From Planctomycetota bacterium (GTDB lineage: Bacteria; Planctomycetota; UBA1135; GCA-002686595): a stretch of 64,000 nt of DNA. The stretch's first letter is position 1. Each line of letters starts with the position of its first letter. This document shows, piece by piece, positions 36,691 through 47,432 of this stretch. Made by a program: the position numbers and the translations under genes. The notes below the pieces were generated by a model that was not told the DNA's origin, ran no database searches, and saw only the letters and a program-made list of their open reading frames with translations. Location: contig NZBA01000035.1 of the NCBI GenBank assembly GCA_002686265.1, positions 124,001 to 188,000 of the forward strand, in the 5' to 3' direction.

Positions 36691-37662
36691 ATGTCCCGCG
36701 AATCCACCACGACGGAGGCCTCGACAGCGGCTTCGGTGGCCGAGGCCCGACGGCTCCTCGACCGCCCGCTGCTGGAACTGGTTTTCGAGGCCGCGACGGT
36801 CCACCGGCAGCACCACGACCCCGCGGCGCTGCAACGCTCCCAGCTCGTCTCCATCAAGACCGGAGGGTGCACGGAGGACTGCGGCTACTGCTCCCAGAGC
36901 GCTCACTCCGCCGCCGAGATCGAGCGCGAGCCCCTGATGGAGGTCACGGCCGTCCTCGCCGCCGCACGCACGGCCAAGGAGGGCGGCGCCGACCGATTCT
37001 GCATGGGCGCCGCTTGGCGCGAGGTCTCCGACGGCGAGGACTTCGAGCGCGTGCTCGAGATGGTCCGCGGCGTCAAGGCACTCGGCCTGGAGGCCTGCGT
37101 GACCCTCGGCATGCTCGAGCAGCACCAGGCGCGGCGCCTACGGGAGGCCGGGCTCGACTTCTACAACCACAACCTCGACACGGGGCGCAGCTTCTACGAC
37201 CAGGTCGTCACGACCCGCGAGTACGACGATCGGCTGCGCACGATCGAGGCCGTGCGCGAGGCGGGCGTGCGTGTCTGCACCGGCGGTATCCTGGGCCTGG
37301 GAGAGGGCCGCGACGCGCGCGCCGAGCTGCTTGCACAGCTTGCCAACCTCGAGCCGCCCCCCGAGAGCGTGCCGATCAACACGCTGGTGGGCATGAAGGG
37401 CACACCGCTGGGCGACACGCCGCCGCTCGCCTGGGATGAGGTCGTGCGCACCGTCGCGGCGGCGCGCATCCTCTTGCCCCGGGCGGCCGTCCGCCTGAGC
37501 GCCGGGCGCGGGGAGATGAGCGAACAGACCCAAACCCTGTGCTTCTTGGCCGGCGCGAACTCGGTCTTCAGCGGCGAGGAGCTGCTCACCACGCCCAATG
37601 CCGAGCCGGGGCGCGACGAGGCCCTCTTCGAGAAGCTCGGCCTGGGCGGGCCGGGCGCCTGA
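36691..37662 (+). CDS. bioB: Biotin synthase
   Basis: Radical SAM enzyme inserting sulfur into dethiobiotin, 323 residues. The [4Fe-4S] motif is Cys60-x3-Cys64-x2-Cys67 ([13 protein letters not shown]). [10 protein letters not shown], the YNHNLDTG segment, GGILGLGEG and [29 protein letters not shown] include the residues that hold the auxiliary [2Fe-2S] cluster and the substrate. All expected motifs are intact. It is the first gene of bioB, bioF-bioD, bioA, transcribed away from tryptophan dioxygenase with only 72 bp between start codons. Confidence 0.97.
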
Positions 37663-37687
37663 GGGTTGCGGAGGAGCCACGCGAGCG

Positions 37688-39502
37688 GTGGAGCGTGATC
37701 TTGACCGGGCCTGGCGCGCAGAGCGCGAGCGACTAGCGAGCTCGAATCAGCTGCGGGAGCTGCGGCTGGCCGAGAGCTCCCTCGTCGACTTCACGAGCAA
37801 CGACACCCTCAACCTCGCCCGCCACCCGGCGCTGGTCGAAGGCGCGCAGGCCGCCGCCTGCGAGTTCGGGGCCGGCGCTCGCGCCTCGCGCTTGCTCGGC
37901 GGCGGCTCACCGTTGGACGAGGCCGTGGAGGCGGCCGTCGCCCGCTGGCTCGACGCAGACGCCGCGCTGCTGTTTCCCACCGGCTACCAGGCCAACCTGG
38001 GAGTCACCGCGGGCTTGTTCGGCCTCGGAGATTTCGTCTGCTCCGATGCGCGCAACCACGCCTCCCTGATCGACGGGCTACGGCTGTCGAGGGCGAGGGT
38101 GGGAGTCTTCGAGCACGGCGACGCCGATCACGCCGACCGCCTGCTCGCCGACGCTGTCGGCGCCCCGCGACGCTGGCTCGTCACCGAGGGGATCTTCAGC
38201 ATGGACGGCGACGCCGCGCCCCTAGCCCGCTTGGCGGAGCTCTGCGTCCGCCACGACGCTTGGCTGATCGTGGACGAGGCCCACGCCGTCGGCATGGTCG
38301 GGCCCGAGGGAGCGGGCGCCTGGGCGGCGACCGCCGACCGCGGCGCCGATCCCTCGCGCCTGGCGGCGCGCGTCGTGACCGGCGGGAAAGCCCTCGGCGC
38401 CGGCGGCGGCCTGGTGGTCTGCTCGAGCGCAACGCGCGAGCGCCTCGTGCAGGGCGCCCGCAGCCTGATCTTCACCACTGGCTGTCCGCCTCCCACCGCC
38501 GGCGCCCTCGCGGCGGCCGTTCCCCTCGCCAGGGCGGCGACGGACGCGCGGGCGCGCGTACGCGAGCACGCCGCGCGCATCGCCGCCGCGGTCGGCGGAC
38601 CGCCGCCGGCGGGAGCCATCGTCCCGGTCGTGCTCGGCGAGAGCGAGGCGGCCCTCGCGGCCGCCGCGAAGTTGCGTGCGGCGGGGTTCGACCTGCGGGC
38701 CGTCCGACCGCCGAGCGTTCCCGCCGGGAGCGCGCGCCTGCGGGTCGCGCTGCACGCCTTCAACTCCACCGAGGACGTCGAGGCGCTCGCGAGCGCCCTC
38801 GCCACCCGCCCGACCGCCGGCGTCTCGCCCGCCGCATCCGGCGAGACCGCGAGGGCCTTGTTCGTGGTCGGAACCGACACCGACATCGGTAAGACGGTCG
38901 TCGCTGCTTGCTTGGCGCGGGCCGCGGCGAACCTGGGGGCGGCGGCCTACTGGAAGCCGGTCCAAACCGGCGAGGACGACGATACCCGGGAGGTCGAACG
39001 CTTGTGCGCGGGTTGTGACGTCGAGTTCGCCGAACCCCTCGCCCGCTTCCCCCTGCCCGCCTCGCCCCACGAGGCGGCGGCCGCAGCCGGGGAGGCGGTC
39101 GAACCCACGCGCCTCGCGGAGCGCCTGGCGGAGCTCACCGGCCCCGAGACCGCCGGGGCCCTGATCGTGGAGCTCGCCGGCGGCCTGCTGGTGCCTTACG
39201 ACGAGCGCACGACCCAGGCGGACTGGTTGGCGGCCGAGCGTCCGCCGCTCGTGCTGGTCGCGCGCTCGGGTCTGGGAACGCTCAACCACACCCTGCTCAG
39301 CGTCGAGGCCCTCGCCGCCCGAGGCCTGCGGCCGCTGGCCCTGGTTCTCGTCGGCAAACCCCACGCCTCCAACCGCGCAACCCTGGCCTCGCGCACGGGG
39401 CTGGAGGTCCTCGAGCTGCCCCTGCTCGATCCCCTGGGTCCCGCGGAGCTCGCGGACTGGCTCGCGGGCCACGAGCTCGCCCCGCTCTTCAGGGACCGAT
39501 GA
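37688..39502 (+). CDS. bioF-bioD: Fused 8-amino-7-oxononanoate synthase / dethiobiotin synthetase (BioF-BioD)
   Basis: One continuous frame of 604 residues from a GTG preceded by GGAGGAG. Residues 1 to about 372 are a fold-type I PLP enzyme like BioF: VDFTSNDTLNLARHP, GGGSPLDEAVE, TEGIFSMDGDAAPL, IVDEAHAVGMVG and the PLP lysine Lys234 in VTGGKALGAGGG. After an Ala/Ser/Pro linker, about 390-604 is BioD: VVGTDTDIGKTVVAA (P-loop), YWKPVQTGEDDD, and ELAGGLLVPYDERTTQADWL. No stop or frameshift signal lies at the junction. One polypeptide would thus make KAPA and close the ureido ring, with BioA acting between them. Confidence 0.93.
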   Translation: MERDLDRAWRAERERLASSNQLRELRLAESSLVDFTSNDTLNLARHPALVEGAQAAACEFGAGARASRLLGGGSPLDEAVEAAVARWLDADAALLFPTGYQANLGVTAGLFGLGDFVCSDARNHASLIDGLRLSRARVGVFEHGDADHADRLLADAVGAPRRWLVTEGIFSMDGDAAPLARLAELCVRHDAWLIVDEAHAVGMVGPEGAGAWAATADRGADPSRLAARVVTGGKALGAGGGLVVCSSATRERLVQGARSLIFTTGCPPPTAGALAAAVPLARAATDARARVREHAARIAAAVGGPPPAGAIVPVVLGESEAALAAAAKLRAAGFDLRAVRPPSVPAGSARLRVALHAFNSTEDVEALASALATRPTAGVSPAASGETARALFVVGTDTDIGKTVVAACLARAAANLGAAAYWKPVQTGEDDDTREVERLCAGCDVEFAEPLARFPLPASPHEAAAAAGEAVEPTRLAERLAELTGPETAGALIVELAGGLLVPYDERTTQADWLAAERPPLVLVARSGLGTLNHTLLSVEALAARGLRPLALVLVGKPHASNRATLASRTGLEVLELPLLDPLGPAELADWLAGHELAPLFRDR

Positions 39503-40794
39503 CGTCCCCCGGAGCCGACCCGCGGAGTTTGATCGGGCGCGATCGTGCGCACCTCTGGCACCCCTTCACCCAACACGGCACAGAGGCGGATCCGCTCGCG
39601 GTGGAGTCCGCGCTCGGCTCCGTGTTGACCCTCGAAGACGGGCGGGAGCTCATTGACGCCATCTCCTCCTGGTGGGCCTGCCTTCATGGCCACAGCCACC
39701 CGCGCATCGTGGCCGCCATGACCGAGCAGGTCGGCAAGCTCGATCACGTGCTCTTCGCCGGCGCAACCCATGCTCCGGCGGTCGAGCTCGCCGAGCGGCT
39801 GGTCGCCTGCACCCCCGCCGGCCTCTCGCGGGTGTTCTTCTCCGACAACGGCAGCACGGCGGTCGAGGTAGCGCTCAAGATGGTCATCCAGTCCTGGCTG
39901 CAGCGCGGGGAGGGCCGCAGGCGCGTCTTCGTCGCCCTCGAGGGCGGCTACCACGGGGACACCTTCGGCGCGATGGCGGCCGGGGATCCCGATCCGTACT
40001 TCCTGCCCTTCGAACCTCTTCTCTTCGAGGTGTGCCGCGTCCCGCCGCGGGGCGAGGCACTGCGCGAGGCGCTCGACGGGCTCGGCGAGCGCGCCGCCGG
40101 CGTCGTGCTCGAGCCCCTCGTCCAGGGAGCGGGCGGCATGCGCATGCAGGCTCCTGCCTTCTTGCGCGAAGTGCGCGCCGCCTGCGACGACACCGGCCTG
40201 CCCTGGATCGCCGACGAGGTGATGTGCGGCTTCGGCCGCACGGGCAGCCTGTTCGCCTGCGACCGGGCCGGCGTCGCCCCCGATCTGCTGTGTCTGGCGA
40301 AGGGGCTGACCGGAGGGGCCTTCCCTCTCTCGGTGACGATGGCGACCGAGCCCGTGTTCGAGACCTTCGTCTCCACCGACCGCCTGCGGGCGTTCTTCCA
40401 CGGCCACACGTTCACCGCCAACCCCGTGGGCTGCGCGGTGGCCCTGGCCTCACTCTCGATCTGCGAAGAGGAGCGAACGCCACAGAGACTCGATGCGATC
40501 GGCCGCCGCATCGAGGGTGCCCTGAGAGGGAGCCTGGAGAGCTGCCCGGGCGTCAGTGACCTGCGCCGCACCGGCGGCATCGTCGCGGTCGATCTCGCTG
40601 TGCCCAGCGGCGAGTGCGCCGGCTACGCCTCCTCGCTCGCGCCGCGCCTACGCGCCCTGGCGATCGAGCGCGGCGTGCTCCTGCGCCCGCTGGGTAACGT
40701 CCTCTACGCCATGCCACCGGCCAGCACGAGCGAAGACCAGTGCGACCGGATCGCCGAGGTGATGGCCGAGCTGGCTCGAGCCGCCGCGGAGTGA
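39499..40794 (+). CDS. bioA: Adenosylmethionine-8-amino-7-oxononanoate aminotransferase
   Basis: PLP aminotransferase converting KAPA to DAPA with SAM as donor, 431 residues. BioA-specific features are HLWHPFTQH near the N terminus, DAISSWWACLHGHSHP (Trp-Trp), FFSDNGSTAVEVALKM, GGYHGDTFGAM, ADEVMCGFGRTG with the PLP Asp, and the PLP lysine in CLAKGLTGG. The ATG overlaps the BioF-BioD stop by 4 bp (ATGA), so translation is coupled. It completes the late biotin pathway in this operon. Confidence 0.96.
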   Translation: MTSPGADPRSLIGRDRAHLWHPFTQHGTEADPLAVESALGSVLTLEDGRELIDAISSWWACLHGHSHPRIVAAMTEQVGKLDHVLFAGATHAPAVELAERLVACTPAGLSRVFFSDNGSTAVEVALKMVIQSWLQRGEGRRRVFVALEGGYHGDTFGAMAAGDPDPYFLPFEPLLFEVCRVPPRGEALREALDGLGERAAGVVLEPLVQGAGGMRMQAPAFLREVRAACDDTGLPWIADEVMCGFGRTGSLFACDRAGVAPDLLCLAKGLTGGAFPLSVTMATEPVFETFVSTDRLRAFFHGHTFTANPVGCAVALASLSICEEERTPQRLDAIGRRIEGALRGSLESCPGVSDLRRTGGIVAVDLAVPSGECAGYASSLAPRLRALAIERGVLLRPLGNVLYAMPPASTSEDQCDRIAEVMAELARAAAE

Positions 40795-40811: not shown

Positions 40812-41390
40812 TCACTCGCCCCGAGCGAGGCGACCGACCTGTTCGCGGACGAACTCCTCGCCGCCGCCCGGCGTCATCCCGGCGCGGCGCGCCTCGGCCA
40901 GCGCCTGCTCGAGCGGGACTCCCACGACGACGGTGCGATGGATCGCCATCAACGCCACGCAGCGGGCACCGCTCCCGCAGAAGACGAGGGTCCGGGGTCG
41001 GTCCGCGCGGCCGAAGCGGGCGAGCACCTCGTCGACGGCAGTTTCCGACGGCAGAGAGGAATCGTCCTCCCCGACACGGACGTACTCCATCCCGAAGCGA
41101 GCGCAGGTCGCAGCCACATCGAGGTCCGTGCTTTCGCCGGCGGCGGAGAGGTCGATCACGCACTCCACGCCACGACGCTCGGCCAGCTCGAGATCCTCCC
41201 AGGCGGGGGTGCTCCCCAACCAGATTCCGTCGACGACGAACACGTTGCGCATCGAGCCGAAGGTGCCGGTTTCCAGCGGCGGGTACTCGGGTGTCGACGA
41301 CAAGGTGGGGCCGCCCTGGCAGGCGGCGAAGGCCAGCGCCGCAATCCCGGCGGTCAGACGGGCGATCAGCGAGTGTCTCGTGGAGGTCAT
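40812..41390 (-). CDS. Lipoprotein with a tyrosine-phosphatase-like (DUF442-type) domain
   Basis: 192 residues. The signal peptide ends in a lipobox (LAFAAC, Cys24), so the protein is probably anchored to a membrane. The domain reads GIWLGSTPAWEDLELAERRGVECVIDL, then a P-loop LVFCGSGARCVAL with Cys138 and Arg143. The spacing is CX4R, as in the DUF442/beta-lactamase-hydrolase-like group, rather than the CX5R of classical phosphatases. A general acid is not obvious. The start at 41390 gives a perfect signal peptide. It follows the VWA gene in the same direction after 138 bp. Confidence 0.75.
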   Translation of the reverse strand: MTSTRHSLIARLTAGIAALAFAACQGGPTLSSTPEYPPLETGTFGSMRNVFVVDGIWLGSTPAWEDLELAERRGVECVIDLSAAGESTDLDVAATCARFGMEYVRVGEDDSSLPSETAVDEVLARFGRADRPRTLVFCGSGARCVALMAIHRTVVVGVPLEQALAEARRAGMTPGGGEEFVREQVGRLARGE

Positions 41391-41457
41391 CGAGGCGGGT
41401 GGGCGGGAAGACCTGCGTGAGAGTCGGGACGTCCCGAGCTCCAGCGGGTGACCCCGA

Positions 41458-41486
41458 ACTCTAGCCTCGATCCGCGCGCCCTCCAA
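41458..41486 (-). promoter_or_regulatory. Candidate promoter of the phosphatase-like lipoprotein
   Basis: On the minus strand TTGGAG (41486-41481) and TAGAGT (41463-41458) are 17 bp apart, about 67 nt before the ATG at 41390. This would make the gene independent of the VWA operon. Confidence 0.4.
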
Positions 41487-41528
41487 GCCCCTCACCGCAA
41501 TCCGCCTCCCGCGGGGCGCTCCTCGGGG

Positions 41529-44399
41529 TCAGCGTCCCCCGGCCTCCTGGCGCATCAGCTCCCGGATGCGGTCGGAGAGCTCCCGATTCTGCCGCTCGAG
41601 CTCCGCGATCACACCGTCGTCGACGATCGTGCTGAGCTCGGAGTACTCGCAGTCGAGGATGCGGTTGCGACGCAGGCCGTCGATGGAGCGTTCGAGGACC
41701 CCCGGTGTGTGATAGGGAGCCTGCCTGATGAGCGCGCGAGTGCGCACCATGAGCGAGAGGAACTCGAGGTGATCGGGGTCGGCGAGCTCCCGCTCGAGGG
41801 TCGCCGCAACCGAGATCAGCTCGTCGAGGGAGTCATTGCGGGCATGGTAGCTGCGGCGCAGGATCTCAGCGAATTGAGCGACGCAGACCGACCGGCGGAA
41901 CCCGGCCGAGGCGCCCTCGAAGGTAGTCCGGCTGCTCCAATTCACGTTGGTCTCGATCTCCGTGGCGCTGTCCTCCAGGGGATCCCGCTCGGGACCGCTG
42001 GGTCGCTTCCAGCGCAGGCGCACGGTGGCCAGGGGCGGATCGGCGGCGGCGGGGACGTCGTTCAGGTCCAGCTCGTAGAGCGCCACGATCTGGTGGCCCG
42101 CCCCGACCTCGCCGGCGTCGACGGAGTCGTTACGGAAATCCACGTCGGCGATGGCCCGATTCTCGTAGCCCAGCAGTCTCCAGCGGTGGACGAAGCGCGG
42201 GTCGAACTCCACTTGCACCTTCACGTCACGCGCGATCGGCTCGAAGGCGCCGGTGAAGTTGTCCACCAGTGCGCGCTGAACCTCCTCGGGGCTGTCGACG
42301 TAGTTACAGATCCCGTCGCCCCTGTCCGCGAGCTGCTCGAGGAACACGTCGTTGTGGTTCCCGAGGCCAACGCCCACGGTGTTGAGGTAGATCCCCTTCT
42401 CGCGGTGGGCCCCGACGGCCTCGGCGATGCGCCCCTGGTCGGTCTCGCCGATGTTGGCAACGCCGTCGGAGAGGAACACCACGCGGTTGTTCGCCTCCAG
42501 CGTCAGTTCGTTCACGGCAAGCTCAAAGCCCAGGCGGATGCCCGCATCGGCGTTGGTGCCTCCGTCGGGGTGCAAGCCGAAAACCGCCGCCTCGATCACG
42601 CCGCGGTTGGCGGCCGAGGTCATCGGAAGCACGAGGCGCGCCTCGTTGCTGAAGGCCACCAGGGCGATCGCGTCCCGCCCGTCGAGCTGTCCCACGAGCT
42701 GGCGCAGGGCGTGCTTGACGAGCTCCAAGCGACGGTCCTTCTTCATCGACCCCGAGGTGTCCACGACGAAAGTCAGCGCCAATGGCTTGCGCTCGGTGCG
42801 CGAGACCTCCCGGCCACGGACGACGACGCGCAGCTGGTGAGGCTGTTCGACGCGCCCCGAACGGGGCGCGATCCCCACGGCGAAGCGGCTGGCGGCCAGA
42901 TCCGTGTGGATGGAGAAGACACCCTCCTCGGGGGAGAGAACGTCGGGCTTGAAGTAGTTCAGGAACTCCTCGGTCCGGACCTGCTCGCGGGTGGGGAGGA
43001 GACCCTCGTTCAGCATGCGCCGGGCCAGGGCGTAGCTGGCGGTGTCCACGTCCACGCCGAAGGTCGACTGGGCGTCGAGCGCGGTGAGCTCGAAGGGGTT
43101 GTCTCCCCAGAAGCGGAAGAACATCGCACCCGGCCGTTCGCCGGGTCGGCGGCGGCAGGAGCCAAGGAGCTGATCGACGCGCGCGGGGTCGGAGGCGCTG
43201 GACTCGAGCCCGAGCGAGAGCCGCTTGCGCGCGGGGCCGGCGTGATCGCCTTCGCGCGCAAGCGGCTCTCCGAGCCTCTCGAGCACGCGGCCGGCGGCGG
43301 GGGCGCGGAGCTTGGCAGCCCCTCTCGCGACGAGCCCCGCCGTGGGGGCGGGAGGAGCGCCGCTCGGACCGGAGGTCGAGGGGCCCGCCGGACCTGCAGC
43401 GCCCGGCGGGGCCGGCGGGGCCGGCGAGGCCGGCGCGAAGCGATTGCGGGCCGTGAGCTTCTCGCCGGCGGAGACCCCGTCGAGGAGGAACTCGCCGGCA
43501 CCGGTGACGGCGCCGTTGCCCTCTACGCCGGAGACCTTGTGGAGGTAGTCGTCGGGAGCCGCCCCGCCGCCGTCGCCGCCGACCGGCGTGGAGGGTGCGG
43601 CGAAGAAGCGCTCGCGCCCCGCACGGAGGTCCGGTGACTGTGACGACATCAAGGAGCGGCGAGTCGCCTCCGGTGCGGCTCGCTCCGCCGGAGGACTCGT
43701 CGGAGCCTCACTGGGCCGGTCCAGGACGACGCCTGCGGCTCGCTGGGCCGCCCCCCGCTGGGCGGGGGCGGTGGCCGGCGCCTGGTCCGTGGAGGGGACG
43801 GTGTCCGATGGTCCGCGGTAGGTCGCGCCGGCGGAGGACGGGGTCGTTCCGCCGAGGTCTCCGCCGTCCACGGGGGCGGGGCCGCCCCGGGGAACCGTCG
43901 AGCTCGACGAGGCCGCGCTCGGCCTGGGCGCCGATCGTCCCTCCCGCGCCTCGGACTCGGCCATGGGGGCGGACACGCTGTAGCTCTCCAACGATCCGGC
44001 GGCGGGAGCCTGGTTTCTCGCCAGGCGTGCTTCATTGGCCCCCCGTTCTCGAACGCCGTCGAGGGCCCGAAGGGCGATGACGGCTCCGCAGAGAATCAGG
44101 ACCACGGCCGCCGCGGCACGCAGACCGCCCGCGGTCCACATCGCGCGAGGCGCCGCTCCCGCCCGCTCCTCGAGCTCGGAGACGGCTCCCGGAGACAGAC
44201 CCTCTGAGCCGGAGTAGGCCCCGCGGACGAGGCCGATCGTCGCCTCGATCCGCGCGCGCTCGGCCTGCAGCTCCTCGGACTCGGCCAGGGCCGCCTCGAT
44301 GCGCACGCGGTCTTCGGCGCCAAGCTCACCCAGCACGAGGGCGCACAGGAGTTCGTGGGTCTCGTCTCGTTCCATATGCAGATCCTCATCCCTGTTCAT
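41529..44399 (-). CDS. Transmembrane VWA protein (YfbK type) with an anti-sigma-like N terminus
   Basis: 956 residues in four parts. Residues 9-60 (ETHELLCALVLGELGAEDRVRIEAAL) resemble the cytoplasmic sigma-binding domain of RskA-like anti-sigma factors, without zinc ligands. A single TM helix is at about 95-112. A Pro/Ala/Ser/Gly-rich linker covers about 130-420. The YfbK-type module follows: STFGVDVDTASYALARRMLNEG, VWA domain with MIDAS Asp547-Ser549-Ser551 (VVDTSGSM), HPDGGTNADAG, FLSDGVANIGETDQG, then VQVEFDPRFVHRWRLLGYENR in the C-terminal region. The start overlaps the ECF sigma gene stop by 4 bp. It likely senses something outside the membrane and controls that sigma factor; this is inference. 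Confidence 0.85.
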   Translation of the reverse strand: MNRDEDLHMERDETHELLCALVLGELGAEDRVRIEAALAESEELQAERARIEATIGLVRGAYSGSEGLSPGAVSELEERAGAAPRAMWTAGGLRAAAAVVLILCGAVIALRALDGVRERGANEARLARNQAPAAGSLESYSVSAPMAESEAREGRSAPRPSAASSSSTVPRGGPAPVDGGDLGGTTPSSAGATYRGPSDTVPSTDQAPATAPAQRGAAQRAAGVVLDRPSEAPTSPPAERAAPEATRRSLMSSQSPDLRAGRERFFAAPSTPVGGDGGGAAPDDYLHKVSGVEGNGAVTGAGEFLLDGVSAGEKLTARNRFAPASPAPPAPPGAAGPAGPSTSGPSGAPPAPTAGLVARGAAKLRAPAAGRVLERLGEPLAREGDHAGPARKRLSLGLESSASDPARVDQLLGSCRRRPGERPGAMFFRFWGDNPFELTALDAQSTFGVDVDTASYALARRMLNEGLLPTREQVRTEEFLNYFKPDVLSPEEGVFSIHTDLAASRFAVGIAPRSGRVEQPHQLRVVVRGREVSRTERKPLALTFVVDTSGSMKKDRRLELVKHALRQLVGQLDGRDAIALVAFSNEARLVLPMTSAANRGVIEAAVFGLHPDGGTNADAGIRLGFELAVNELTLEANNRVVFLSDGVANIGETDQGRIAEAVGAHREKGIYLNTVGVGLGNHNDVFLEQLADRGDGICNYVDSPEEVQRALVDNFTGAFEPIARDVKVQVEFDPRFVHRWRLLGYENRAIADVDFRNDSVDAGEVGAGHQIVALYELDLNDVPAAADPPLATVRLRWKRPSGPERDPLEDSATEIETNVNWSSRTTFEGASAGFRRSVCVAQFAEILRRSYHARNDSLDELISVAATLERELADPDHLEFLSLMVRTRALIRQAPYHTPGVLERSIDGLRRNRILDCEYSELSTIVDDGVIAELERQNRELSDRIRELMRQEAGGR

Positions 44400-45037
44400 C
44401 GCGAACCTCCATCCATGGCGCGGGGCCTCTCGGTGGGCGAAGGGGCGCTCGGCATACCGCGAGGATCCAGCGCCAGCGCCGGGGCCAGTCGCTCGCCGAG
44501 GACCTTCAGGCCCTCGCTGACCAACCAGCCGACGGTCCCGACCTTCTTGCCGGTGATCTCGGCGATCTCGCGATAGCTGCGCTCGGCGATCAGCCGCAAG
44601 CTCAGCACCTCGCGCTGGTCGTCGGCCAGGCGCTCGAGCTCACGCTCGACCGCCGCGATCGTGTCGCGTTCCTCGACGAGCTCGAGGCCGCCCGCGAATC
44701 CCTCGCGCGAAGCCCTCTCGTTCTCCCGTGCCCTGCGGCGAGATTCCGACCGGATGATGTCCATGCAGGCGTTCCTCGTGACCTTGTGCAGCCACGCTTG
44801 CAGCTGCTTCCGTTCGCCCTCGGGGCCGCCCCCCGCCTCCACGGACAGGACCAGGCGCTCCCGAGTGAGCCTGAGGAAGACCTCCTGCACGACGTCCTCG
44901 TAGACGCTCCCCGGCCCGAGGATCCCGCGTGCGTGAGCGAGCAAGGCTCGCTGGTGGCGGGTCACGAGTTCGGTGAACGTCCCCCGGCGGCCCAGGTAGT
45001 GGGCCCGGAGAAGCTCTCCGTCCGAGAGGTCTTTCAT
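44396..45037 (-). CDS. ECF-type RNA polymerase sigma factor, coupled to the VWA gene
   Basis: 213 residues. Sigma region 2 is visible at GTFTELVTRHQRALLAHARGILG and VYEDVVQEVFLRLTRER, and region 4 at LERLADDQREVLSLRLIAERSYREIAEITGKKVGTVGWLVSEGLKVL with its helix-turn-helix. A Gly/Glu-rich insert separates them. The C-terminal tail of about 35 residues is Pro-rich. ATGA overlap with the VWA gene makes the pair one regulatory unit. The start at 45037 begins the conserved MKDLSDGELLRAHY; upstream sequence in frame is not sigma-like. Confidence 0.9.
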   Translation of the reverse strand: MKDLSDGELLRAHYLGRRGTFTELVTRHQRALLAHARGILGPGSVYEDVVQEVFLRLTRERLVLSVEAGGGPEGERKQLQAWLHKVTRNACMDIIRSESRRRARENERASREGFAGGLELVEERDTIAAVERELERLADDQREVLSLRLIAERSYREIAEITGKKVGTVGWLVSEGLKVLGERLAPALALDPRGMPSAPSPTERPRAMDGGSR

Positions 45038-45162
45038 GCAGGCGCTTCGCCCATCTCGGAATCCCAGACGGCGCCGCCGGCGGACGTCTTGGAGGAATCC
45101 GGGGGCTTTCTTCGTGGCCGTGTAGTGGGGGAGGCGGCCGGGGACACCTCCCCGGCTCCCCT

Positions 45163-46239
45163 TCAGTCCTCGTCCTCGTGCTCGCCGATCAGGAGCTTCA
45201 CCATGCCGTTCACGTCGATGATGCTGGGGATCGAGGGGTCGTTGGAGTTGAGGGTGACGCTCTCGAAGGTCAGGTTCTCGGCCGCCTTCCGCGCCAGGAA
45301 GATGCGGCCCCCGAGGGTGTCGAGGGCCTGGTTGCGCAGCTCGTTGCGTAGAGCCTCGGCCTTGTCGATCGCCAGCTGGCCGTCGGCGACGGCTGTCTGG
45401 TAGTCGGCCTCGCCCTCCGCTCGGGTGCGCTGGTCGTAGACGTCCGCTTCCGCCCGCACCGTCGCGACCGCGACCTTGTTCTCCGAGCGCATGGTCTCGA
45501 GGGTCTTGTCCCACTCCCCGCGCTTCTGCTTCTCGGCCGCGGCGATCTCTGCGTTCTTCGTGCCGTTGACGGCCTGCTGCTCCTCCACGCCCCGCTTGGC
45601 CCTTGCCAGCTCGCGCCTCTGGTAGGTGATCTGCTTCTCCTGCAGCTCCTTCTCGTAGCCCGCGGGGAAGTGGATCGCCCGCACGAGGATCCGCTCCGGT
45701 TGTACGTGGTACTGCTTCATGTCCTCGGTCATCGGGACCAGCGCCGCATCCACGCGAGCCACGCGTTTCTCGGTGTCGTAGATCTCCTCCGAGGAGAGCT
45801 GCGCCAACTCCTCGCGCAGGGTGCTCTCCACGCGGTCCGCGACACGACTGCGGTAGGTGTCGCGGTTGCCATCCATGACGATTCTGTAGCCATCGCCCTC
45901 GATGATCCGGTAGGTGACCGTGACATCGAAGGACGCCACGTTGTTGTCCTTGGTGCGGATCTGCAGCGAAGGCCGGTAGTCACCCGCCCGCGATCGGGCG
46001 CGGCGCTCGGAGAAGTTCAAGAAGTGCGTCCGCTTATCGAGCATGTACCACTTGTGGTATCCGCTGACGCCGATGTGATAGCCGAGATGGTGGTCCTTCT
46101 CGACCACGCCGCCGCCTCCCCACAAGGCCTGCTTGACGCCGATTGCCGAGGGCGGGACCTTCTCAAGGAGGGCGCCGAACGCGCCCAAGGCGACGGCGCA
46201 GAGGGCGACTAGGACGAGGAATGTCTTGGCGAATCTCAT
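45163..46239 (-). CDS. SPFH/band 7 membrane protein, HflC-like
   Basis: 358 residues with one N-terminal TM (FAKTFLVLVALCAVALGAFGALL). The SPFH core follows (SLQIRTKDNNVASFDVTVTYRIIEGD), then VADRVESTLREELAQLSSEEIY. A long charged coiled coil (about 205-300, rich in Glu, Lys, Arg and Ala) precedes a C-terminal cap ending in acidic residues. It overlaps its upstream SPFH partner by 4 bp, as HflK/HflC pairs do. It would form hetero-oligomeric cages in the membrane, often around FtsH-type proteases; no ftsH is in the window. Confidence 0.85.
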   Translation of the reverse strand: MRFAKTFLVLVALCAVALGAFGALLEKVPPSAIGVKQALWGGGGVVEKDHHLGYHIGVSGYHKWYMLDKRTHFLNFSERRARSRAGDYRPSLQIRTKDNNVASFDVTVTYRIIEGDGYRIVMDGNRDTYRSRVADRVESTLREELAQLSSEEIYDTEKRVARVDAALVPMTEDMKQYHVQPERILVRAIHFPAGYEKELQEKQITYQRRELARAKRGVEEQQAVNGTKNAEIAAAEKQKRGEWDKTLETMRSENKVAVATVRAEADVYDQRTRAEGEADYQTAVADGQLAIDKAEALRNELRNQALDTLGGRIFLARKAAENLTFESVTLNSNDPSIPSIIDVNGMVKLLIGEHEDED

Positions 46240-47432
46240 GACTGACCTCCATTGCTGAAGCTGGCCTCGTCAACCAGCGGCGTAGTCGGTTTCGCTCCGC
46301 TGTGCTCGAGGCGCTTGGGGGCTGGGTCGCGGCTGTAGGGGACGAGCGTGAATCGGATGCTACGCAGCTTCTCGATGACCGCCTCGCGCACGACGACCTC
46401 GCCCCGCTGCTCGAGGGCCTCGGCCTGCTTCTGGATGCCCTCGGCCTCCTTGCGGAACTTCGCCTCCAGGCCTCGCGCGCGCTCGATCATCTCGGCCTTC
46501 GCAGCGAGACCCTCGGCCACTTGCGTGATCTTCGCCGCGTCCGCTCCGCGCTTGATCTGAATCGCGCTCTCCTGGGCCGCGAGCAGGGCCTTCTGAAGGT
46601 CCCCTTCGAGGTCCTGACGCTCGATCTCCTTGTCCTTCTCGACCGAGGCCAGGCGCTGGCCGCGCTCCTCCACGATGGTCTCCTCCTCCGCCCTCAGGCG
46701 CTGAATCTCCTGGTCCGCTTCCTTGCGCGTCTCGATCGCGTGCTCGTACTCGGGATCGAACTTCGGATCGGGGACGGGGATCTTGGTAACCCGGATTCCG
46801 TGCGGCGCGAGTATCTCGTTGAGCCGCTTGGCCGCCTCGATCGGCGCAGCGTTGTAGACCGTCGGGTTGGCGACCTCGACGGCCGAATAGCGGCCGAACT
46901 CGTCGCGCAGGATCGAGCGCGCGTGGGCGCGGATCCACTCCTCCTTGTAGGCATCACCCGGGCCGGAGTCCTGCAGCGCGATCGCCGCGTCGCCCGGGAT
47001 GAGCTCGTAGTGCACGGTCAGAGAGTCGAACCAGAAGTTGGAGCCGTCCCCCGCACGTACGGTGAGTCGGGAGACGTGGTTGTTGCTGGTCGCATCCCGT
47101 CCCTCCATCGTGAACTCCTGGGAGCGCTTGTCGAAGACGAAGACCTCCTGGGCGATGGGCATGTAGATCTTGATGCCGGGGGTCGTGATCACCTCCTTGG
47201 CGCCGGTCAGGTAGTTGACCTTCACGGCCACCTCGTTGTCGGCCACGCTCGCCACGCCCGCCCTGCCCGAGACGACGAGGCCGAGGGCGGTGAGCAGCAG
47301 GACTAGAAACAGGACTCCGGCCGCCATGACGATGATCGGCGGGTGTCCGCCGCCCGCTAGGCGCCTGACGGCCGCCTCGCCCTTGCCGGGAGGCCAGTTG
47401 GTGGGGATGTCTCCTTGGTCGCTCGGGCTCAT
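46236..47432 (-). CDS. SPFH/band 7 membrane protein, HflK-like
   Basis: 398 residues. A Gly/Pro-rich cytoplasmic N terminus precedes one TM (IIVMAAGVLFLVLLLTALGLVV), then the SPFH domain (DNEVAVKVNYLTGAKEVITTPGIKIYMP) and SLTVHYELIPGDAAIAL. The coiled coil (about 230-350) has repeated Ala/Glu/Lys runs, and the C-terminal tail is Ser/Pro-rich. The start at 47432 has AGGAG with good spacing; an upstream in-frame ATG at 47492 lies within the probable promoter. It is coupled to the HflC-like gene by ATGA overlap. Confidence 0.85.
   Translation of the reverse strand: MSPSDQGDIPTNWPPGKGEAAVRRLAGGGHPPIIVMAAGVLFLVLLLTALGLVVSGRAGVASVADNEVAVKVNYLTGAKEVITTPGIKIYMPIAQEVFVFDKRSQEFTMEGRDATSNNHVSRLTVRAGDGSNFWFDSLTVHYELIPGDAAIALQDSGPGDAYKEEWIRAHARSILRDEFGRYSAVEVANPTVYNAAPIEAAKRLNEILAPHGIRVTKIPVPDPKFDPEYEHAIETRKEADQEIQRLRAEEETIVEERGQRLASVEKDKEIERQDLEGDLQKALLAAQESAIQIKRGADAAKITQVAEGLAAKAEMIERARGLEAKFRKEAEGIQKQAEALEQRGEVVVREAVIEKLRSIRFTLVPYSRDPAPKRLEHSGAKPTTPLVDEASFSNGGQS

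Follow-up and report, generated by a model that had tools for sequence, protein, structure and literature searches.

A putative ECF sigma factor/anti-sigma switch with an extracytoplasmic VWA domain in Planctomycetota

Planctomycetota possess many sigma factors with unknown signals. The locus described here raises the question whether one of these sigma factors is controlled by a membrane protein that carries a von Willebrand factor A (VWA) domain, and which of the surrounding genes belong to the same system. It is located at positions 41,529 to 47,432 of a 64,000-nucleotide stretch of DNA from a member of this phylum (assembly GCA_002686265.1, contig NZBA01000035.1, positions 124,001 to 188,000), hereafter called the window, and encodes two SPFH proteins, an extracytoplasmic function (ECF) sigma factor and a VWA protein. 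An earlier inspection of these letters that made no use of database searches (the sequence-only reading) had described all four genes as a candidate membrane-sensing system. Based on domain identities, gene coupling, conservation and a promoter motif, all obtained by sequence and structure comparison, we consider it likely that two translationally coupled genes, for the ECF sigma factor and for a membrane anti-sigma factor with an extracytoplasmic VWA sensor, make up a self-amplifying switch, and that the SPFH proteins are not a component of it.

The N terminus and the ectodomain of the VWA protein

The four genes are all encoded on the minus strand (Table 1), and with the exception of the HflK/HflC assignment of the SPFH genes, discussed below, they belong to the families named in the sequence-only reading. 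Besides both Pfam sigma-70 domains, the ECF sigma factor was recognized by the NCBIfam model sigma70-ECF (74 bits, cut-off 42.9). Its gene is coupled to the VWA gene by a 4-nt ATGA overlap, as had been noted, and an ATGA overlap is also present between the two SPFH genes.

The anti-sigma segment of RskA type that had been suggested for the N terminus of the VWA protein was recovered by profile as well as by fold comparison. Taken alone, the N terminus gave weak family matches, namely zf-HC2 with 20.7 bits, just below the cut-off, and NCBIfam anti-sigma models with 24-29 bits. For a profile of 47 homologous N-terminal segments the top four chains in the PDB were those of RslA (9e-8, 3hug), ChrR (2e-5, twice) and RskA (1e-4), and unrelated coiled coils appeared only from 0.07 upward. 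For all 47 relatives an NCBIfam anti-sigma model gave E values of 0.01 or lower (best 2.5e-15), and zf-HC2 matched 22 of the 47 segments. The AlphaFold2 (AF2) model of the N terminus, with a predicted local distance difference test score (pLDDT) of 87.5, shows a bundle of three helices (residues 3-22, 28-40 and 42-63) and a separate helix 4 (residues 70-82), followed by the membrane helix. In structural comparison with VIA-align the four best rows were RslA (Z 6.4), RsiW (6.3), MucA (6.2) and MucA again (range Z 6.0-6.4), and the next rows contained RskA, ChrR and DdvA at Z 4-5, interrupted by one unrelated toxin (4.2). Z values of this modest size are to be expected for about 60 residues, and no family was excluded on the basis of the fold-comparison lists. 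It is the agreement between sequence profile and structure that carries the identification of the anti-sigma domain.

The arrangement of the helices agrees with the architecture of class I anti-sigma domains, where helices 1-3 form a bundle and helix 4, which is flexibly linked, binds sigma region 2 (PMC7406223). The Hx3Cx2C zinc motif is absent from the N terminus of the window protein, which has no zinc ligands; this motif is optional in proteins with a class I anti-sigma domain and present in about 56% of them (PMC7406223). Another YfbK-type VWA protein (L094:3478-6570) does have a zinc-type anti-sigma N terminus with Hx3Cx2C (HAKSCYQC), showing that this place in the protein can be filled by a zinc or by a zinc-less form. 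The helix fold, the sequence homology and the adjacent ECF gene of the window protein are those of the class I group. Very probably, the VWA protein spans the membrane once, has its VWA domain outside and acts as the anti-sigma factor of the ECF sigma factor encoded next to it.

The protein further contains the Pfam domains vWF_A (PF12450, 2e-20), VWA (PF00092, 1e-17) and YfbK_C (PF12034, 2e-34) in the order typical of the YfbK family. Its metal ion-dependent adhesion site (MIDAS) is intact, and the residues D547, S549, S551, T615 and D645 are conserved in at least 98 of 103 aligned homologues, in line with the YfbK-type domain proposed earlier. A single hydrophobic segment was found near residues 86-113, and the linker between the membrane helix and the VWA module is long, variable and rich in Ala, Pro and Ser. 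Several homologues lacking the anti-sigma domain have lipoprotein signal peptides ahead of the same ectodomain, which indicates that the VWA/YfbK ectodomain is exported. Together with the one membrane helix and with basic residues, which are commoner before this helix in most homologues, the exported ectodomain supports an orientation in which the anti-sigma domain would be inside the cell and the VWA domain outside the cytoplasm, as had been predicted.

Linkage of the gene pair, its promoter and the proposed switch

The linkage of sigma and VWA genes was assessed in two samples. Out of 48 related loci obtained by contig searches 42 hold both genes, and in every one of these the sigma gene is located directly 5′ of the VWA gene; in most cases the two overlap by 4 nt or are separated by a short gap. 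The second sample was a survey of 149 Planctomycetota genomes, 83 of them with a PF12034 gene, from which 63 genes in 60 regions were tested; genes were picked by the YfbK domain alone, and regions L101, L131 and L133 share their genomes with loci of the first sample. Where the anti-sigma domain was present, 37 of 38 YfbK-type VWA genes had an adjacent ECF gene, compared to 5 of 25 genes without a domain match ([[37,1],[5,20]], Fisher p = 7e-11, a value that is only a guide since related genomes are not independent). The sole domain-bearing gene without an adjacent ECF gene (L084) has its ECF gene 441 nt upstream. The five ECF-adjacent genes without a domain match are the zinc-type L094 and four genes (L099, L128, L134, L140) encoding a short N-terminal segment and a membrane helix; because the profile was built from ECF-adjacent loci, very divergent anti-sigma domains could be missed.

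In these latter four regions, a divergent ECF gene is followed by two YfbK genes in tandem. The protein with the short N-terminal segment and membrane helix is encoded by the first gene and a probable lipoprotein by the second, and the two are possibly a sensor pair. In the genome of the window itself, a second ECF and anti-sigma-VWA pair without a CCAAG promoter (L117, G000:C35:41445-50000) is located on the same contig at a distance of about 120 kb.

Upstream of the sigma gene, 28 of 43 loci share the motif CCAAG(A)-N16-CGT(T/C) at exact spacing, where shuffled sequences gave an expectation of 0.07, and 7 further loci have it with a spacer shorter by one base. The motif mostly precedes the sigma start codon by about 43-57 nt, and a T/A-rich triplet before the -35 element as well as a CG before the -10 element are additionally conserved. 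The motif was missing from most paralogous ECF-YfbK pairs, as expected of a subgroup-specific promoter; it goes with this sigma subgroup, irrespective of gene position. The Planctomycetota have conserved the sigma/VWA pair together with its own promoter, and the conservation of the motif at exact spacing suggests that the sigma factor autoregulates its own operon.

In the switch that we propose, the anti-sigma domain (residues 1-83) would sequester the sigma factor in the cytoplasm and keep it inactive, and the membrane helix and the long linker would join this domain to the YfbK-type VWA module outside the cytoplasm. On a signal at that module the anti-sigma domain would be lost, most likely through regulated intramembrane proteolysis, leaving the sigma factor free to transcribe its own operon, and perhaps few other genes, from the CCAAGA-N16-CGT(T/C) promoter. 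Inhibition, the outside location, proteolysis and autoregulation are the steps that we infer. Site-2 protease genes are present in the genome; to our knowledge such genes are nearly universal. As for the signal, the MIDAS invites the guess of metal-dependent ligand or surface binding.

In the window, the promoter site is the only one above threshold and scores 29.9, compared to a best score of 15.2 in a shuffled window. Several points weigh against the proposed switch. The weight matrix behind these scores had its highest-scoring sites as training set, and some orthologues (L014, L016, L023) lack the motif or carry a changed form of it. The location of the VWA domain outside the cytoplasm is a predicted topology. 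Fused AF2 models, for which neighbouring sigma and VWA genes in the same frame (L007 and others) were read through the stop codon, gave confident domains without a confident arrangement of sigma and anti-sigma factor (predicted template modelling score 0.45). Furthermore, no regulon beyond the operon was established by motif scans of the window's own genome or of 14 genomes. The own genome contained 33 core matches versus 15 for a reversed control, with the operon site at 29.9 and the next best at 15.1, and a stricter pattern yielded 1-11 sites in each of the 14 genomes with the operon site scoring highest in each of the 12 genomes where it was found.

The scans did give an indication of a secreted protease-inhibitor defence regulon under control of the sigma factor, as motif sites were located shortly 5′ of a serpin gene (L237) and of an alpha-2-macroglobulin-like gene (L238) in two genomes. 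However, the motif is absent from the serpin genes of three other genomes, the window's own included, or occurs there only as a weak variant, and the site counts in several genomes are near the control count. Such a regulon is therefore unsupported and we consider it highly improbable. A promoter-like site shortly 5′ of a DUF4139 gene (L234) was observed in a genome different from those of L237 and L238. It might also be argued that the VWA protein works chiefly in the envelope, as an effector or chaperone, and that its N terminus provides feedback, in which case the sigma factor would report the assembly state of the VWA protein and not an external ligand. This would be consistent with the homologues without anti-sigma domain, which as exported lipoproteins must have a job of their own, and with the operon itself being the best sigma promoter site in the 12 genomes mentioned. 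The linker, on the other hand, has the length and variability seen in sensor-type anti-sigma factors, properties that do not separate effector from sensor, and we regard a role mainly as effector as rather unlikely.

The SPFH pair and further neighbouring genes

The sequence-only reading had described the SPFH proteins as HflK/HflC-like scaffolds with a possible influence on anti-sigma proteolysis. Curated models rule out this identity, since the HflC model TIGR01932 reached 9.4 bits on the SPFH genes compared to a cut-off of 134.4 and the HflK model TIGR01933 had no match at either gene. Both are generic Band_7 proteins.

A component role of the SPFH pair in the sigma-VWA system would be in agreement with its position directly 5′ of the sigma gene and on the same strand in the window and in ten relatives, which come from several branches of the sigma/VWA tree; in locus L026 only the end of SPFH2 is present, 5 kb away. 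A second neighbourhood of both families exists outside of Planctomycetota on a Streptomyces yangpuensis plasmid (L158, NZ_CP102516.1), where a YfbK lipoprotein gene is followed by an SPFH gene. However, of the four-gene order that was to be expected for one system only the sigma-VWA part was kept in all 42 loci with both genes. In at least 11 related loci no SPFH gene is found beside the sigma gene, which is flanked by arginase there. Among the checked genomes of these loci, Poly30 (L029) has the SPFH orthologue at a distance of about 14 kb and Pla86 (L025) has it well away from the locus, the others encode only a roughly 40%-identical SPFH paralogue or none, and SPFH1 had no match in two of the checked genomes.

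The intergenic region likewise argues for separate units. SPFH2 and sigma gene are 125 nt apart in the window, which points to two coupled pairs instead of one evenly coupled operon. In relatives this gap ranges from about 115 to 650 nt and often contains strong hairpins (L052, z -5.6 with a T run; L020, z -4.6; L008, z -5.3). A classical hairpin with T run is found in L052 and L051 where the hairpin of the window is located (Table 1), the stretch folded for L007 contains a weak hairpin (z -1.5), and the gap of L030 holds an opposite-strand open reading frame that was read as RidA-like. The sigma promoter motif is absent from the SPFH1 upstream regions. Arginase, dual-specificity-phosphatase-like and biotin genes were identified as further conserved neighbours, and as arginase and biotin genes are also conserved in the surroundings, the SPFH block can be explained by shared gene order. 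Separate promoters and the lack of a shared phylogenetic pattern, which would speak against a common system, were thus found for the SPFH pair and not for the sigma-VWA pair. Based on distribution, gap, hairpins and promoter we rejected the SPFH pair as a component, a role that appears quite improbable; the pair is probably a neighbouring unit and bystander, and its suggested part in anti-sigma control is not supported.

On the other side of the VWA gene, the window encodes a small dual-specificity-phosphatase-like protein, possibly a lipoprotein, with only weak Pfam matches (40812-41495, minus strand). About seven related loci have this gene conserved 3′ of their VWA genes. A single frame of 634 amino acids resembling a BioF-BioD fusion (37598-39502, plus strand) is followed by a gene for a BioA-like class-III aminotransferase (39499-40794).

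Table 1. Features of the sigma-VWA locus and the preceding SPFH genes; positions refer to the window.
Feature	Position	Strand	Description
SPFH1	47432-46236	minus	398 aa; Pfam Band_7, E 3e-21; judged a neighbour outside the system
SPFH2	46239-45163	minus	358 aa; Pfam Band_7, E 6e-19; judged a neighbour outside the system
Strong terminator-like hairpin after SPFH2 stop	45128-45161	minus	-26.1 kcal/mol, z -2.5; no T run
Putative autoregulatory promoter CCAAGA-N16-CGTC	45067-45092	minus	55 nt 5′ of sigma ATG; conserved core and spacing
ECF sigma factor	45037-44396	minus	213 aa; Pfam Sigma70_r2 2e-11, Sigma70_r4_2 4e-10
VWA/YfbK putative membrane anti-sigma factor	44399-41529	minus	956 aa; vWF_A, VWA, YfbK_C
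Class I anti-sigma domain, residues 1-83	44151-44399	minus	profile, NCBIfam, AF2, VIA-align
Predicted transmembrane helix, residues 90-119	44043-44132	minus	hydropathy maximum at residue 95; AF2 helix
MIDAS region, residues 541-645 (D547, S549, S551, T615, D645)	42465-42779	minus	homologue alignment

Relation to known systems and significance

The window pair resembles RskA/SigK, RslA/SigL, RsiW/SigW and MucA/AlgU in its N-terminal three-helix domain with helix 4, its membrane helix and the adjacent ECF gene. It differs from these anti-sigma factors in the ectodomain, which here consists of a large linker and the VWA/YfbK module. A cytoplasmic sigma-binding segment, one membrane helix and an extracytoplasmic sensor module are also found in RsgI/SigI of Clostridium thermocellum (PMC12203970), but in that system the anti-sigma domain is a different one, SigI is not an ECF sigma factor, and the ectodomains are carbohydrate-binding and accompanied by a periplasmic autocleavage domain (PMC12203970). 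No RsgI model was among the Pfam and NCBIfam matches of the VWA protein, and its partner is an ECF-type sigma factor.

The same VWA and YfbK_C ectodomain is shared with YfbK of E. coli and other YfbK_C/vWF_A proteins. Unlike in the window, no sigma gene adjoins yfbK in E. coli, nor is one adjacent in the Salmonella and Nostoc relatives, and in contrast to the lipoprotein homologues the window protein has no E. coli-type lipoprotein signal peptide, the export signal being replaced by the anti-sigma domain and the membrane helix. Plasmids of Rhizobium, Ruegeria and Azotobacter come closer, as an ECF gene overlaps the 5′ end of a YfbK-type VWA gene whose product has a hydrophobic N-terminal segment; this segment is, however, short and does not match the anti-sigma profile. 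We found no description of an ECF-anti-sigma-VWA fusion in the open-access papers searched, and the ECF classification may already list it.

We tentatively raise the possibility, which we hold with less than even confidence, that YfbK-type VWA domains are phylum-spanning extracytoplasmic sensors for ECF sigma factors and that the sigma factor is gated by a metal or ligand bound at the MIDAS. If true, the YfbK/DUF3520 family would represent a single sensing module that exists either as a free lipoprotein or coupled to a sigma factor. The proposed switch would provide one widespread class of planctomycetal sigma factors with a defined anti-sigma factor, with a sensor candidate whose metal site can be probed, and with a promoter that could serve directly as a reporter. 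It would also offer a first functional handle on the YfbK/DUF3520 family, which is present in E. coli and many other bacteria.

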